The notes beneath the pieces are model-generated. The model was not told the DNA's origin. It ran no database searches and saw nothing but the letters and a program-made list of their open reading frames with translations. 64,000 nt of DNA from Phycisphaerae bacterium (GTDB lineage: Bacteria; Planctomycetota; Phycisphaerae; Phycisphaerales; UBA1924). Where the stretch lies: assembly GCA_030429705.1 (NCBI GenBank), contig JAUIES010000003.1, positions 62,001 to 126,000 on the forward strand, given 5' to 3'. Below, piece after piece: positions 19,808 through 25,539 of the stretch. The translations under genes and the position numbers were made by a program. Each line of letters begins with the position of its first letter. Within the stretch, counting starts at the first letter, position 1.

Positions 19808-20012
19808 CGCTCATTCCTCCTGCCAGGCGTGCATGCTTGCTTTGGCCCTACCCGAGGTCCGTTGACCCCGTTGCCTTACAACAGTTTCATCTATCGGCCC
19901 GTACACTACCGGGTCAACCGTCCTTGTCAACACCCAAACCAGACCCGCGTGCCACATTCTTGACCATCGCGGGGTACACTGTCTCGACCAGACCCTTGTG
20001 ACGGATCCACAA

Positions 20013-20597
20013 ATGACCCAAAAGCCCGGTTCCAGCATCCATTTTGTCGCCGGTTTGATTGCACTCGCCTTCCCCGGTGCGGGTCATTTCTTTGTGCTAG
20101 GAGAACGCCAACGCGGTTTTTTTGCTGCGGTCGGCGTGCTCGGGCTTTTCTTTGGTGGACTTCTCGTCGGTGGCATCAGCGTTGTTGACCGCGAAGAAGA
20201 CAAATACTGGTTTCTCGGACAGGCATTGATCGGACCCATCGCCTTTGGGGTGAACACGATCCATCAGAACAGCTACAAGGCGTATGAGGTGCCGCCCGAG
20301 ATCATCGAGTTTCAAAAGGTCGATGCCAAGGTGGCCAACTCGTTTGTCAGACGGTCCTTGCATCCTGATGAAGAACTGAAGGTTGTCGAGATGACAATTC
20401 TGCAGCCGACGGGCGCAGAAGTGACCACGCGCATGCCAGTGGCTGTTCCCGCGGGTCCGGGCGGTGGTCCGCCTGCGTATCAGTCAATCGGCCGCATGAA
20501 TGAACTCGGCATGCTCAGTTCGACGCTTGGCGGGATGTTGAATTTCATCATTATTCTCGATGCACTCTTTCCAACGCGAAGGAGGAAGCAGGCATGA
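20013..20597 (+). CDS. Hypothetical polytopic membrane protein
   Basis: This 194-residue protein has about three hydrophobic segments in the first 90 residues (FVAGLIALAFPGAGHFFVLG, then FFAAVGVLGLFFGGLLVGG, then FLGQALIGPIAFGV) and one near the C-terminus (LNFIIILDALF), with a soluble region between them. The GAGHFF-LGERQRG stretch resembles small planctomycete membrane proteins, but I cannot name a family with certainty. The ATG at 20013 or the GTG at 19998 could be the start; a TACACT hexamer lies at 19975-19980. It overlaps the next gene by four bases, so the two proteins are probably made together. Confidence 0.6.
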   Translation: MTQKPGSSIHFVAGLIALAFPGAGHFFVLGERQRGFFAAVGVLGLFFGGLLVGGISVVDREEDKYWFLGQALIGPIAFGVNTIHQNSYKAYEVPPEIIEFQKVDAKVANSFVRRSLHPDEELKVVEMTILQPTGAEVTTRMPVAVPAGPGGGPPAYQSIGRMNELGMLSSTLGGMLNFIIILDALFPTRRRKQA

Positions 20598-20848
20598 GTT
20601 TGGTGCTCGCGTACACGCCGTTTATCGATGCGATGAATCTTGATCGTGTCTGGTATCTGATCTTGATCCCGATGTGTTTTTTCATCGCGGTGGGGTACAA
20701 GTCGGTGCGGACCTACGACATGAAGGACTACATGAAACAGGTATTCCAGTTCACCGGGATGATGGTGATCGGGATCGCAGCACTCGGTGCCGGGTTTTAT
20801 GTGTTGATCAGCGTGCTGCTTCCGATGTTCGCCCCGATGGCCGAGTAG
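20594..20848 (+). CDS. Small two-pass membrane protein
   Basis: This 84-residue protein has two hydrophobic segments (about 19-34 and 53-79) linked by a short polar loop. It is translationally coupled to the preceding membrane-protein gene: the start overlaps the stop (ATGA), and AAGGAGGAAGC lies just upstream inside that gene. The function is unknown; it is probably a subunit or partner of the upstream membrane protein. Confidence 0.65.
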   Translation: MSLVLAYTPFIDAMNLDRVWYLILIPMCFFIAVGYKSVRTYDMKDYMKQVFQFTGMMVIGIAALGAGFYVLISVLLPMFAPMAE

Positions 20849-20871: not shown

Positions 20872-21741
20872 TTAACCGACCGATCGCGTCACGCTGACAG
20901 CTCGATAGAGCCCCTCGACTTGTTCGCGCGGATAGACCGAAGGCGGGTAACGGTTGTTGATCGGTTGCAAGCGAATCATCTCTTCGTCGTCACTTCCGCG
21001 TTCAAAGTAGATGCGTTTGAAGGTTGTTTCGTGATCTGGTGCCAGGCGGACAAAACAGTCGTTGCCGCTATCGATGTCGCGCGCCGGGCTGAAGACAACG
21101 ATGTCACCTTCGATGTACTCGGGGCTCATCGAGTCACCGACGACTCGGGCTGCGAACGCGTCGGCATCGCCGAGCCCCGGGCAACGGACATATTCATCAG
21201 CCACGCGTGCGGGGTAACCGAGATCGGTGAAATCGGTCGGATAACCCGCCTGCACACAGTTGATGAGTGGAACTTCCATCGGGAGAGCAGACTCAAACCG
21301 TTGGAGATTGCCAGCGTGACACGCGTGCTCGACAAGTCGGTGCAGTTCACCGGTTCTATAGGCTTCGTCGAGTGAGCCTCGCAGCCTACCGGCATCGTCG
21401 ATGCCCCCGGATTCGATGAGGGTTGCAATTTTTCGCCCTGCTTGTTCTCGATTGGACAGTGCGACCAACTCTTGGCGCACTTCTGTCGGTGTCTGGCTCC
21501 AGGCTGCCAGTCTGGTGAGTGCGCCGGGTTCCAGTGCGAGCGTGTGTTCGAGTTGTTCGAGCAGTGCCTTTGAGGGCGGTCCTTTGTGTCCGTTCTCGAG
21601 TGCGGACAGGTAAGACTTGGCGCAGTTCGCTCGGGCAGCGACTGCGGCGAGTGTGAGATCGGCGTGCAATCTCGCGCTTCGAATGGCTTCGCCGAGTCGG
21701 GGTCGTTTGAAGCCTGGCTTTGATGGAGTGTTTTTTGGCAT
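20872..21741 (-). CDS. XRE-HTH / S24 peptidase repressor (LexA/CI-like)
   Basis: This 289-residue regulator has an N-terminal XRE helix-turn-helix (about 28-52; LTLAAVAARANCAKSYLSA) and a C-terminal S24 domain. Catalytic residues are visible: Ser204 in GDSMSP and Lys242 in TTFKRIYF. An Ala165-Gly166 pair (VQAGYP) sits where LexA/CI proteins cleave themselves. It should therefore be a repressor inactivated by RecA-stimulated self-cleavage after DNA damage. It is read divergently from the terminase operon, which it probably controls. The ATG at 21741 is preferred over 21786 because a TATGAT -10-like hexamer lies between them (21775-21780). It converges with the small membrane-protein gene. Confidence 0.82.
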   Translation of the reverse strand: MPKNTPSKPGFKRPRLGEAIRSARLHADLTLAAVAARANCAKSYLSALENGHKGPPSKALLEQLEHTLALEPGALTRLAAWSQTPTEVRQELVALSNREQAGRKIATLIESGGIDDAGRLRGSLDEAYRTGELHRLVEHACHAGNLQRFESALPMEVPLINCVQAGYPTDFTDLGYPARVADEYVRCPGLGDADAFAARVVGDSMSPEYIEGDIVVFSPARDIDSGNDCFVRLAPDHETTFKRIYFERGSDDEEMIRLQPINNRYPPSVYPREQVEGLYRAVSVTRSVG

Positions 21742-21967
21742 GGCTTGGCTCGGGTTGTTGCGATGTGTCAACCAATCATATACCATACATTAGCCGATCG
21801 CATGGCCGTGTGCGCGCGTTCATGGTACTCGAACTGAAAGTCCTTGATTCGTGTTCACCGATTGGTAAAACCGTTCTGTGGAGTTCGCTAAGTAGTGAAT
21901 CCACAAGGTTGTGTGAAATCGCAGAGATTCGACTCATGTATGTGCCCCGGGGGCCAAGGAGAACCAA
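21742..21967. promoter_or_regulatory. Divergent regulatory region with candidate operators
   Basis: This is the region between the S24 repressor and the terminase operon. It contains a perfect palindrome CACAA-GG-TTGTG (21902-21913), an inverted pair TGTGGA/TCCACA (21877-21882 and 21900-21905), and distant inverted ACCAATC/GATTGGT (21771-21777 and 21859-21865). These are plausible repressor-binding sites. A minus-strand TATGAT lies at 21775-21780. Operator function is inferred from position. Confidence 0.35.
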
Positions 21968-22453
21968 ATGAACCGTAGGGAGACCCTAACACCACGATCA
22001 CCGAGTGGAGCCTGGAAAGATGCCCGAGAGAGTGCCGTGCGAGACCTACGACGCCGAATCGACCGATCGCAGGCGGATCGCATCGTCGCTCGGGCGGCGT
22101 TCCTGCCTCATCCTGATCGGGCGCTGCTCGAAGCATATTTCTTGCACGGCCGAACGGTGAAGGACATCGCACTCGCTCAGGAGACCGAAACCCGCCGCGT
22201 GAGCCGTCGGCTTCGACGCTTGGCGGTGCGGGTTCTGTCTGACCGGTTTACTTTTGTCGTTCAACGAATGAATGTGTGGGCGCCGTCCCGGCGGAAGGTG
22301 GCGACCGCGATGATGCTCGGCGGGCAGTCGATGCGCGAAGCCGCGCAGACGCTGCACATGACGCTTTACTCCGTTCGTCGGCATCATGACGCGATCTGCG
22401 CTCAGTATGAAATGGAATGCGGGTCACGAGCGAACACGCGAAAGGGTGCGTGA
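21968..22453 (+). CDS. Double helix-turn-helix protein, sigma-region-4-like
   Basis: This 161-residue basic protein has two HTH-like units. The first (about 50-90; LLEAYFLHGRTVKDIALAQE, then RRVSRRLRRLAVRVL) looks like sigma-70 region 4 or a LuxR/sigma-like DNA-binding unit. The second (about 110-140; ATAMMLGGQSMREAAQTLHM, then SVRRHHDAI) resembles another HTH. No sigma region 2 is present, so it is not a complete sigma factor. It could be a transcription regulator of the operon, or a DNA-recognition subunit comparable to a small terminase; neither is proven. AAGGAG lies 6 bases before the ATG. Its stop overlaps the start of the next gene. Confidence 0.7.
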   Translation: MNRRETLTPRSPSGAWKDARESAVRDLRRRIDRSQADRIVARAAFLPHPDRALLEAYFLHGRTVKDIALAQETETRRVSRRLRRLAVRVLSDRFTFVVQRMNVWAPSRRKVATAMMLGGQSMREAAQTLHMTLYSVRRHHDAICAQYEMECGSRANTRKGA

Positions 22454-23904
22454 TGCCTCGGGTCGTGCTGACAACCGGTCAGCCGTCGCAAAGGCAAATA
22501 CAGATCTGCGCTCCATTTGGTGTTGCGCTTGCTTCATCTGACGAGAAGCCATCGATTGCATCGTTTGGGGCTGCGGATTCGGTCCGGTCGGCATTGCGGG
22601 GCGGGGGGGTTGCGTTTCTGAGCGGCCCGAGCGGTAGCGGCAAGTCGACCGCGCTACGGGCACTTGAACGGAGACTCTGTCGACGCGAAGAGCGTGTCGT
22701 CGTGCATCAGTCGATGTTGGATGATGATGCTTTGCTGATCGATATTTTTGGGTCGGGCGTGTCGCCGGAGGAGACATTTCGGCGACTCGCGGCGTTCGGG
22801 CTCGGTGAACCGGCACTCATGGCGCGGCGCGTCGGTGAACTCAGCGAAGGGCAACGGCACCGAGCAGATCTTGCTCGTACATTTCACGATGCAGTACGCA
22901 CTCGATCGAAGTGGATCTTGATCGATGAGTTTGCATCAGTCCTCGATCGCGTGACCGCTCTTTCGTTGGGGGCATCTGTTCGCAAACAAGCAGCGCGTTA
23001 TGGGCTCGGTGTGGTGTGTGCTTCTGCCCATGATGACATTATTTGTACGCTCATGCCCGCGATCGTGGTGCGGTTTCATCTGGATCAATCGTGGGCACTG
23101 GTCCCGAATGCGACGCTCGCCTCGCATGAACCCGTGGTCGAAGTTGAGCGCGGGTGTCTTGCCGATATGGACGGGTTGCTGGCGTATCACTATGTTGCGG
23201 GTCGGCCGGCGACGCGGGTCGGGATTCTGCGTGCGTTCGATCGGACTCATCGGCAGTTGGCGGGCGTGTTGGTGGTGTCGATGCCGACTTTGAATGGTGG
23301 TTGGCGTCAACAGGCGTGGCCGGGGCGATATGCGGGGCGAGACCGGCGTGCATCGGCAGGCCGAATCAACGCCGAGTTGCGTTGTATCTCGCGCGTCATT
23401 GTTGATCCTCGGTATCGCGGGTTGGGTGTCGCGACGAAGTTGGTGCGTGCGTATCTTGCGCAGCCGATGAGTGTCGCCACCGAGGCTGTGGCTGCGATGG
23501 GTGCGATTTGCCCGTTTTTTGAGCGTGCAGGGATGCATGCTTATCGCGTTCCGATTCACGCTGCCGACGCTCGGCTGCAGGATGCGTTGGATGCAGCGGA
23601 GGTATCGCCCTGGATGTTGGCCGATCCGTCTCGCGTGCCGACGCTCATGCGTGACCGATTTGTTCGGTCCGAGTTGCGGGTATGGGCCCGTCGTCGCCGC
23701 GTTGTCGCTGTCGATGATGCAGCGTTGTGTCGTCTGGCCGGTGTGCGCGTGTGCGTGCAACCGATGGCTTATGCGGCTGTAACCCCCCCTAATCAAGTCT
23801 CGTCTTTGGCGACGAGCGCACCATGGGGGAGTCAACATGTCGAACGGAAACCGCGACGATCAGGGACATGCCGCGACAGAGCCTCGTCCGAGCGCCCCAC
23901 ATGA
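22453..23904 (+). CDS. ABC-type ATPase fused to GNAT acetyltransferase (COG2401-like)
   Basis: This 483-residue soluble protein has an ABC ATPase in its first half: Walker A GPSGSGKST (58-66), signature LSEGQ (130-134), Walker B WILIDE (154-159) and H-loop His193. The second half has a GNAT domain with acetyl-CoA motif RYRGLGVA (about 321-328). This fusion is the architecture named COG2401, best known from archaea and some viruses; its function is unknown. With no membrane partner it is not a transporter and may act on DNA or protein. Its ATG overlaps the upstream stop (TGATG). The last ~40 residues overlap the next gene by 68 bases and follow a run of seven C, so the natural C-terminus may be shorter. 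Confidence 0.8.
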   Translation: MPRVVLTTGQPSQRQIQICAPFGVALASSDEKPSIASFGAADSVRSALRGGGVAFLSGPSGSGKSTALRALERRLCRREERVVVHQSMLDDDALLIDIFGSGVSPEETFRRLAAFGLGEPALMARRVGELSEGQRHRADLARTFHDAVRTRSKWILIDEFASVLDRVTALSLGASVRKQAARYGLGVVCASAHDDIICTLMPAIVVRFHLDQSWALVPNATLASHEPVVEVERGCLADMDGLLAYHYVAGRPATRVGILRAFDRTHRQLAGVLVVSMPTLNGGWRQQAWPGRYAGRDRRASAGRINAELRCISRVIVDPRYRGLGVATKLVRAYLAQPMSVATEAVAAMGAICPFFERAGMHAYRVPIHAADARLQDALDAAEVSPWMLADPSRVPTLMRDRFVRSELRVWARRRRVVAVDDAALCRLAGVRVCVQPMAYAAVTPPNQVSSLATSAPWGSQHVERKPRRSGTCRDRASSERPT

Positions 23905-24055
23905 TGATCTGCCGCACCCACTGACCATTTTTCTCACATCCGGTGAACGGCGTCGCGTGCTTCGAACGCTGCGTTCATACCACCGTCAGCGTGCGTGCGC
24001 GCTGCTTCGGGCGCTCGGGCTTGATGAGACAACAGAAGACGAACGGGGGGTGTGA
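23837..24055 (+). CDS. Small hypothetical protein in terminase operon
   Basis: This 72-residue hydrophilic protein has an unstructured-looking N-terminal half and a basic helical segment (about 36-60; SGERRRVLRTLRSYHRQRA). The function is unknown. GGGGGAG lies a few bases before the ATG. The gene overlaps the end of the ABC-GNAT gene, and its stop lies two bases before the terminase ATG, so it is part of the same coupled operon. Small partners of terminases are common, and the basic helix could bind DNA, but this is not established. Confidence 0.55.
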   Translation: MSNGNRDDQGHAATEPRPSAPHDDLPHPLTIFLTSGERRRVLRTLRSYHRQRACALLRALGLDETTEDERGV

Positions 24056-24057
24056 AG

Positions 24058-25539
24058 ATGGACGAACATTGTTCTGAGGGGCTGTCGCTGCGCAGGCCGA
24101 GAACCGCGGACGAGTTGCATGCATTCCTGGTTGAACATTTTGATCTCACGGTGCCTCGTTCGGGGTTGATTGTCGGGCATGCGGCACCGTTTGATTATCT
24201 GTGCCACGCGTTTTTTGAACAGGAGCCGGGCGCATCGCGTGATTGTGTCGTGTGGGCGAATCGGGGGGGCGGCAAGACCTTTCTCGCTGCAGTCGCCACC
24301 GCTCTTGATCTGGTGTTCAAGCCGGGCATCGAGATTCGCATACTGGGTGGATCTCTTGAACAGGCGAAGCGCATGCATGCGCATCTGCGGGTGTTGTTTG
24401 CCCGACAGCCATTTGATGCACTGATTGATGGCAAGATCACTGAAAAGCGCATCAGACTCTGCAACGGGTCGGTGGTCGAACTGCTTGCGCAGTCGCAAAC
24501 TTCCGTCCGTGGCACACGCGTCCAGAAGTTGCGGTGCGACGAAGTGGAACTGTTTGATCCGGAGGTCTGGGAGGCAGCACAACTGACGACGCGATCGAAG
24601 AATTGCGGCGGGGTGCATGTGACGGGAACGATCGAGTGCTTGTCGACGATGCATGTGCCCTATGGGCTGATGTACCGCCTGGTCAACGAAGCGAGGCATG
24701 GCGAACGAGCGATCTTCAAGTGGGGCGTGGTCGATGTGCTCGGTGCGTGCAGCGATGCACACACCTGTCTCGATGAGCACGGCGAGTCTACTTGCGGGCT
24801 CTATGCAGCGTGCGAAGGGCGGGCAAAGAAGCGCGACGCGCGCGGCGAACCAGCGGGACATGTCGAGGTGCATGATGCCTTGCAGCAGCAATCGCGGGTG
24901 GCGGAATCGACCTGGGCGTCCGAAATGTTGTGTTTGCGACCCAAGCGGAGCGATTGTGTGCTGCCGGAGTTTGAGCGGGCGGTGCATGTGGTGTCGTCGA
25001 TGCCGTGTGCGATGGAAGATGGGCAGTGGATCGGCGGGATGGATTTTGGGATTCGAGCGCCGACGGTGGTGCTGTGGGCGGTTGTTGCTCCCGGGGGGGC
25101 GGTCTATGTGATGGACGAACGATCTGAAGCGGGTGTCATTCTTGGCGAACACGCGCGAGCGATTCTAGAGGGTTCGCATCCGGTGCCTGCGTGGATCGGG
25201 GTCGATCCGGCGGGGAATCAACGGTCGGGGCAGACCGGGCTGAGTGATGTGCAGGCGCTTGCGCGGGTCGGGCTCAAACCAATCTGGCGGAAGATGGGCA
25301 TCATCGAGGGGCTGAGTCTGGTGCGGGCGAGGCTCAAGCCGGCCAGCGGGACACCCACGCTGTTTGTCCATGAGCGATGCGAGACGCTGATCGAATCACT
25401 TGAGAAGTATCGGTATCCAGCCGAGAACCAGGAAACCCTGACCCCGGTCAAAGACGGCAGCGACCACGCGGTCGACGCGCTGCGGTACATGATCCAGTGC
25501 CTCGATCGAAAGTATGAGACGAAGATGAACAAATACTGA
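24058..25539 (+). CDS. Phage-type terminase large subunit
   Basis: This 493-residue protein has both halves of a DNA-packaging terminase. The ATPase half shows Walker A ANRGGGKT (67-74), Walker B LRCDE (158-162) and a coupling-like HVTGT (187-191). The nuclease half shows an RNase-H-like acidic set: Asp329 in GGMDFG, Asp383 in GVDPAG and Asp469/Asp473 in DHAVDALRY. Between them is an unusual four-cysteine stretch (C231, C237, C246, C252) that may bind zinc or an iron-sulfur cluster. The length and all key residues suggest an active enzyme, not a decayed remnant. The ATG is coupled to the upstream small gene. No capsid, portal or tail genes occur in the window. It is followed directly by ftsW. 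Confidence 0.85.
   Translation: MDEHCSEGLSLRRPRTADELHAFLVEHFDLTVPRSGLIVGHAAPFDYLCHAFFEQEPGASRDCVVWANRGGGKTFLAAVATALDLVFKPGIEIRILGGSLEQAKRMHAHLRVLFARQPFDALIDGKITEKRIRLCNGSVVELLAQSQTSVRGTRVQKLRCDEVELFDPEVWEAAQLTTRSKNCGGVHVTGTIECLSTMHVPYGLMYRLVNEARHGERAIFKWGVVDVLGACSDAHTCLDEHGESTCGLYAACEGRAKKRDARGEPAGHVEVHDALQQQSRVAESTWASEMLCLRPKRSDCVLPEFERAVHVVSSMPCAMEDGQWIGGMDFGIRAPTVVLWAVVAPGGAVYVMDERSEAGVILGEHARAILEGSHPVPAWIGVDPAGNQRSGQTGLSDVQALARVGLKPIWRKMGIIEGLSLVRARLKPASGTPTLFVHERCETLIESLEKYRYPAENQETLTPVKDGSDHAVDALRYMIQCLDRKYETKMNKY

Follow-up and report, generated by a model that had tools for sequence, protein, structure and literature searches.

A terminase operon of a Phycisphaerae bacterium is probably the packaging half of a split, vertically inherited gene-transfer agent

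Characterised gene-transfer agents (GTAs) are named from Rhodobacterales, Desulfovibrio, Brachyspira, Bartonella, Caulobacter and Methanococcus voltae, together with FpGTA, in passages of PMC12946183, according to which few are known outside the Alphaproteobacteria. RcGTA and CcGTA of the Alphaproteobacteria are built from phage-derived head and packaging genes, have long been inherited vertically and often occupy several loci (passages of PMC11841831), features that recur in the system described here. The string 'Planctomycet' is absent from the texts of both papers, and a PubMed Central full-text search of open-licence papers returned no paper whose title or abstract presents a GTA from Planctomycetota or Phycisphaerae; in the passages opened, the term concerned Rhodobacteraceae, a reference or a general remark. 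A passage of one such paper lists incomplete prophages with tail genes in metagenome-assembled genomes of Phycisphaerales. A split GTA is apparently undescribed in Planctomycetota. Here we analyze a repressor-associated operon ending in a gene for a terminase large subunit (TerL), found in a 64,000-nt stretch of DNA (the window) from a Phycisphaerae bacterium (UBA1924; GCA_030429705.1, JAUIES010000003.1 positions 62,001–126,000). The operon probably supplies the packaging genes of a GTA that is split and vertically inherited, with the head genes on another contig. Judged from genes alone, a host-owned particle that packages DNA is very likely, and actual DNA transfer between cells is reasonably likely. 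The class appears to have kept the packing motor and capsid genes of an old virus, here in two separate chromosomal places, for its own use, most likely in packing pieces of its own DNA and passing them on.

An earlier note on the window had described a self-cleaving repressor facing four overlapping genes, the last an apparently intact terminase; all five open reading frames (ORFs) were located where it placed them, with the same overlaps. The repressor, an XRE-S24 (LexA/CI-like) protein with a probable start at Met16, lies on the reverse strand (20872..21786; PF00717, Peptidase_S24, 1.4e-15; PF13560, HTH_31, 3e-10). On the forward strand follow a sigma-70 region-4-like protein with two helix-turn-helix (HTH) motifs, a likely regulator (21968..22453; PF08281 1e-4 and TIGR02937 5.7e-7, both below cut-off), and an ABC ATPase fused to a GNAT acyltransferase (22417..23904; PF13401 4.8e-9, PF00005 1.5e-7, the GNAT models being weak and below cut-off). 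Next comes a 72-residue remnant (23837..24055, forward), the C-terminal tail of a ParB-like protein that has lost its ParB domain; it clusters with ParB-domain proteins of ∼200 residues. The last gene encodes TerL, with an ATPase, a four-cysteine insert and an RNase H nuclease (24052..25539, forward; phrog_2 8.7e-18).

By family, predicted fold and active-site residues, the window terminase is a true large subunit, and the claim that it is intact held up. The predicted model (pLDDT, the predicted local distance difference test, of 83) has the D6E terminase 5oe8 as its best solved match (Foldseek E 5.8e-18). It aligns with HK97 6z6d over 398 residues (Z 21.4, 7.8 Å), with the P74-26 ATPase domain 4znl over 213 (Z 22.8, 2.4 Å) and with the P22 nuclease domain 4dkw over 172 (Z 18.8, 3.0 Å). 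Walker A, D163/E164, D331, D385 and D475 are invariant in 16/16 aligned rows, as are the four cysteines of the insert; we take the nuclease triad to be formed from among these residues, on the pattern of TerL motifs. For the ABC-GNAT protein (pLDDT 86.5), fold searches were filled by ABC domains. Its ABC part matches phrog_11143 (2.3e-21) and phrog_293 (2.1e-15), its GNAT part phrog_886 (3.8e-7), and in several other families ABC and GNAT are two separate genes. Defence-system profiles gave weak ABC and HTH matches only. A single-sequence viral scan found no relatives; an alignment-based scan found relatives at up to 45%.

Thirteen structural-gene profiles had no match anywhere within the 64-kb window, so the statement that no other phage genes accompany the operon stands as far as these profiles reach. 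It fails for the genome. A search for portal and capsid genes elsewhere in the same genome, which the earlier note had proposed, found both on contig 8, the operon being on contig 5. This head locus (G000:C8:232559-237411) holds genes for a portal, a scaffold-like protein and the major capsid protein (MCP), plus three small genes; names rest on profile matches, except that the scaffold is named by position. The portal is SPP1-type (PF05133 1.9e-17; phrog_64 1.1e-25) and the MCP is SU10-type (PF17236 3.2e-88; phrog_1328 2.9e-78), while the scaffold-like protein and the three small genes are without a family match. The flanks are ordinary chromosomal genes (phosphoenolpyruvate mutase, phosphorylase, PqiA and MlaD). 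Among 10 neighbours scanned with Pfam, no integrase or replication gene was present; beside the window operon, where ORFs were read by eye only, no integrase was recognised. HK97-type portal (PF04860) and capsid (PF05065) genes, also tried, occur in 16/101 and 12/101 genomes of the relatives set (the window's own genome plus 100 relatives) and not in the own genome. Taken by itself, that absence would have favoured a capsid-less device, a reading overturned by the SPP1-type portal match.

The head genes recur as a set. The SPP1-type portal is present in 74 of the 101 genomes, own genome included, with one match each (71 over the cut-off), and the SU10-type MCP in 73. Clusters of portal, scaffold-like and capsid genes were seen in 20/20 fetched portal loci, the capsid sometimes as its N-terminal part only, and portal, scaffold-like, capsid and HC1 genes (HC and T numbers are our gene-family labels) recur in 5/5 class genomes examined outside the order. 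The MCPs of 11 other genomes are 55–67% identical to the own copy, and over 16 genomes mean identity is 0.61 for MCP versus 0.45 for TerL.

Packaging and head genes occur together. In a protein search, 79/101 genomes matched TerL, two of them weakly (G085, G100), leaving 77 strong; this distribution is neither patchy nor strain-specific, and the HK97-type prophage genes are confined to the 16 and 12 genomes just given. TerL and MCP were both present in 68 genomes, TerL only in 9, MCP only in 5 and neither in 19 (Fisher p 1e-9); for TerL and portal the numbers were 68, 9, 6 and 18 (Fisher 9e-9). These cells were taken from match lists, with G022 and G069, which have an MCP fragment only, scored as present, and neither the Fisher nor the Mantel-type tests correct for shared ancestry. 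In the phylum set (294 genomes), the same 20 class genomes hold TerL and MCP, with partial MCPs in G069 and G072. Divergence is correlated as well: over 16 genomes, pairwise distances gave coefficients of 0.55 for TerL–MCP and 0.56 for TerL–portal (reached in 0/9999 permutations), and 0.44 for MCP–portal (1/9999).

The two loci are also physically close in some genomes. TerL and portal share a contig in 28 genomes, and in 24 of these they are ∼8–67 kb apart. Genome G108, of family f14 in another order, has nearly all of the genes in a single ∼23-kb run, in the order repressor (divergent), sigma-like, ABC, GNAT, TerL, portal, scaffold-like, capsid, HC1, HC3, T22, T26, a LamG-like protein (identified by eye), T24, T25, a protein with one transmembrane segment and a lipoprotein; an opposite-strand hydrolase-like gene sits between sigma-like and ABC. 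One cluster that was later broken up is the parsimonious history. The earlier note had held that integrase, portal and capsid genes contiguous with the block in a relative would mark an ordinary prophage remnant. The run in G108, with portal and capsid genes nearly contiguous with the block, fits that condition in part, but no integrase was recognised in its cluster, where ORFs were read by eye and not by profile. Given this and the class-wide inheritance, G108 points to a domesticated prophage rather than an ordinary remnant.

TerL, MCP and portal are under purifying selection. Ratios of nonsynonymous to synonymous substitution (dN/dS), which are rough because synonymous sites are near saturation, were 0.10–0.28 for TerL (12/12 estimable), 0.11–0.20 for MCP (9/10) and 0.13–0.24 for portal (8/10). 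In a quick IQ-TREE phylogeny of 41 TerL rows, supported by the Shimodaira–Hasegawa-like approximate likelihood ratio test (SH-aLRT) only, the own order forms one clade (SH-aLRT 99), and 7/9 families with several rows can each be cut off from the rest at a single branch, the exceptions being f15 and f20. Rows L257, L260 and L266 form a separate deep clade, and a viral row on a long branch, L086, lies between it and the rest. Vertical descent of TerL is well supported within the own order and, as far as sequences indicate, likely for the whole class.

The operon itself is widespread in the class. In the class set, 125/198 genomes match TerL, 22 weakly and 103 at E 1e-31 or better; a few of the 103 are only 30–36% identical and belong to the deep TerL clade. 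In the phylum set, the 20 genomes with a match at E 1e-144 or better all belong to the class. Beyond the class, G338 matches at 9e-47 across most of TerL, with a terminase and then a portal-like gene recognised by eye, and the remaining matches are C-terminal only. Seventy-six of the best 80 database TerL loci are titled Planctomycetota, Phycisphaer- or Tepidisphaera, the exceptions being L151, L163, L205 and L212. Of these 80 loci, 61 had at least 4 kb upstream of TerL and were testable for gene order, a comparison that the earlier note had also called for. Sigma-like, ABC and GNAT genes precede TerL in 61/61, with a divergent repressor in 53, a ParB profile match in 34 and TerS (the terminase small subunit) in 7. 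Most of 20 loci from the own order show this same arrangement. Among 20 further loci (19 elsewhere in the class, plus G338), 10 keep the sequence sigma-like, ABC, GNAT, TerL, and 4 of these 10 have the repressor too; the others end at a contig end, have TerL alone or have an operon interrupted by other genes. Conserved gene order rules out chance for the operon, which is real and not prophage debris.

Some loci depart from this arrangement or carry further genes. In L254, L250, L255, L249 and L264, TerL stands apart from the operon or the operon is interrupted by inserts, and the TerL frame is still open. Two small membrane-protein genes adjoin the repressor in the window (19998-20848); they recur near the operon in 10/21 loci, often on the far side of TerL. 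L151 and L212 are titled as cyanobacteria yet carry the operon, and at least the L151 title is probably wrong.

The repressor's catalytic residues, which the earlier note gave as Ser204 and Lys242, counting from Met16, are Ser219 and Lys257 of the listed ORF; each is kept in 17/19 rows, own row included. At the predicted cleavage site, Ala180-Gly181, Ala is kept in 18/19 rows and Gly in 19/19, which bears out the reading of the protein as an XRE-S24 repressor with an Ala-Gly site. The palindrome GTTC-N10-GAAC occurs in 30/64 distinct intergenic regions between repressor and sigma-like genes (shuffles: mean 0.08, max 1), and other half-site spacings from 4 to 19 occur 0–5 times in the same regions. 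An operator matrix was built from the 30 sites of other genomes, leaving out the window's own sequence. It placed its best site of the 64-kb window at 21882..21901, a predicted repressor operator matching TGTTCACTATATAGTGAACA, with 14.1 bits against 9.7 for the next best site. This site lies in the correct gap, and its right half reads GAAT instead of GAAC. SOS-like control is plausible, given the LexA/CI-type protease residues and the conserved palindromic operator.

Comparison with other families shows what the operon has lost. Elsewhere, the position of the small protein is taken by a ParB-like protein of ∼200 residues (PF02195 below cut-off, phrog_723 4.7e-15), and a gene for a protein of ∼150 residues stands directly before TerL, called TerS-like by its position since neither Pfam nor PHROG profiles match it. 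The window lineage has lost both TerS and the ParB domain, consistent with non-specific packaging. In phages SSU5, nickie and RHph_X66, genes for ParB, ABC, GNAT and a DNA-binding protein run ahead of TerL, and portal and capsid genes come after it (in SSU5 the portal gene carries the annotation hypothetical); in Cyrano this run is visible only up to the DNA-binding protein. An SSU5-type run (ABC, GNAT, ParB, DNA-binding/TerS-like, TerL) occurs in other families, both within the order and elsewhere in the class, with ParB at a different position from that in the phages. By this shared run, the operon is a detached phage packaging module.

From these elements a working sequence can be proposed. 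The S24 repressor would bind the 20-bp palindrome in the divergent promoter, a site identified by its sequence, and would be released, perhaps through RecA-stimulated self-cleavage. The sigma-like HTH protein may then turn on the head genes. Portal, scaffold and SU10-type capsid protein, of which the portal and capsid families are established, would assemble into a procapsid, and the terminase would fill it with host DNA by headful packaging. The loss of TerS and the ParB domain would leave little choice of site. ABC-GNAT probably modifies or handles the packaged DNA, as a published prediction for this pairing suggests, and lysis-like genes such as those of relatives would release the particles.

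Several observations weigh against a split, vertically inherited GTA. No repressor operator was found before the own portal, and a search for an operator shared by packaging and head genes found none; the head genes are therefore probably under some other control, for which the sigma-like protein is a candidate. Outside the own order, the repressor profile matched 4/20 loci only. Searches of the own loci found no tail or lysis genes, and a TerS profile search of the own genome had no match. Smaller genes reach a dN/dS of 0.52, and the roughness of these ratios itself counts here. The position of viral row L086 leaves a class-wide single origin short of support. TerL occurs without MCP in 9 genomes, including G080 (one contig, 93% complete), and 5 genomes have MCP and no TerL. 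Apart from G086, the listed genomes of family f2, nine in number, have neither TerL, portal nor MCP. There are broken genes (a stop in TerL of G069, in MCP of G071 and in portal of G058), and MCP is split over two places in 7/73 MCP-positive genomes. Finally, further, more distant SU10-type capsid genes in G026, G039, G063, G071 and G079 indicate that the capsid family also occurs outside the agent.

Other observations concern the same genes in relatives. Family f2 (e.g. G061, G066, G070) is a candidate for lineage-wide loss; its member G086 has all three genes, the capsid in two places. Four loci (L309 1109-12206, L310, L311 and L312, from G035, G017, G002 and G086) carry an ∼11-kb insert at the same codon of the capsid gene, 4/4. 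The L312 insert has genes for a large serine recombinase, an AAA_25 ATPase, a sigma-like protein, a DNA methylase and a Phage_capsid_4 protein of its own. The insert resembles a satellite that brings a capsid gene with it and has the capsid gene of the agent as its target. The tail-like genes T22–T25 belong to other families only and are named by position, with no convincing Pfam or PHROG match. In relatives, a small protein matching a spanin family (phrog_89 3.9e-5) and a lipoprotein are lysis-like; neither is at the own loci. A related capsid (E 1e-60 to 1e-149) occurs in 22 genomes of families f39, f47, f68, f98, f100 and f108 (among them G291, G315, G335 and G440; L313–L316), 18 of which also have a C-terminal terminase match; these are perhaps a second GTA-like lineage or prophages. 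Three IMG/VR contigs filed as viral (L323, L324, L325) carry a class-type capsid at 56–57% identity, and L325 8251-18291 has portal and tail-like genes in the same order as the class loci. They may be GTA loci mistaken for prophages.

Three alternatives can be set against these data. A domesticated phage-like particle for killing or competition, like PBSX, would package host DNA and deliver none. It would show the same conserved and selected genes, and PBSX itself packages 13.4-kb host fragments (passages of PMC12946183), but searches of the own loci yielded neither a tail nor a killing module, and a particle that kills would depend on a tail no less than one that transfers DNA; we consider this alternative improbable. 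Very unlikely is a capsid-independent device for DNA processing or abortive infection, consisting of the terminase operon alone, with an unrelated head locus. The operon genes are indeed linked more tightly to each other than to the head locus, an MCP match is lacking in 9/77 strong TerL genomes, and in G126 and G194 TerL is located away from the rest of the operon. Yet TerL, portal and MCP co-occur with correlated divergence, all lie in one run in G108, and G126 too has retained portal, scaffold-like and MCP genes at another place. Repeated acquisition of ordinary prophages that are now decaying remnants is scarcely credible, despite broken genes in single genomes, phages of similar module order (SSU5, nickie, RHph_X66) and a viral row inside the TerL tree, given the wide presence in the class, operon genes kept at 61/61 testable loci, low dN/dS and an order-level TerL clade; for the own order this explanation is already largely refuted.

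The earlier note had thus rightly argued for selection over decay, as low dN/dS and the conserved operon indicate. Among the options that it listed, the split GTA has gained strong support from the head locus elsewhere, its co-inheritance with the terminase and purifying selection. It has become unlikely that the operon is a packaging device without a capsid, a satellite dependent on the capsid of another phage or a defence system acting by itself. A fuller history that joins these strands is possible but rather doubtful as a whole. It would have the GTA ancestral and vertically inherited in all Phycisphaerae, from a phage with an SPP1-type portal, an SU10-type capsid and an SSU5-like module. 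Its loci would have been split, TerS and the ParB domain dropped for non-specific packaging, and ABC-GNAT kept to mark or select host DNA, with capsid-encoding elements exploiting the agent by insertion into its capsid gene.

A class-wide ancient GTA, if real, would explain gene exchange among mostly uncultured environmental bacteria. It would offer an independent origin for testing the change from phage to GTA, with TerS loss traceable across families, and possibly a DNA-modification step in packaging. The related capsids in the 22 genomes of other phylum families, often with a terminase match, would extend the phenomenon of ancestral GTAs, if they prove to belong to it. A caution follows for virus databases, which may file such loci as viruses.

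Among known systems, the SSU5/nickie-like module is close in its packaging genes: its ABC and GNAT proteins match the same PHROGs (293, 886) as the Phycisphaerae operon, whereas its ParB gene stands at the other end of the module. Nickie has a phrog_145 portal and a phrog_212 capsid; the latter was found in 1/101 genomes here, and the former in 0/101, in a search that matched no control either. The ABC-GNAT pairing resembles the ABC-ATPase-coupled GNAT systems described by the Aravind group, which have the same domain pairing and are predicted, by prediction only, to modify DNA (passages of PMC7824862). FpGTA, from gut Faecalibacterium, has had its packaged host DNA sequenced (passages of PMC12946183), whereas the Phycisphaerae system is known from its genes. 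RcGTA-type TerS is without a detectable DNA-binding domain (passages of PMC11841831). In contrast to RcGTA-type agents, the own genome lacks PF04860 and PF05065 and has instead an SPP1-type portal, an SU10-type capsid, an S24 repressor and ABC-GNAT. Judged by gene families rather than by sequence comparison, the best reading is that the Phycisphaerae system had a phage ancestor different from that of RcGTA.

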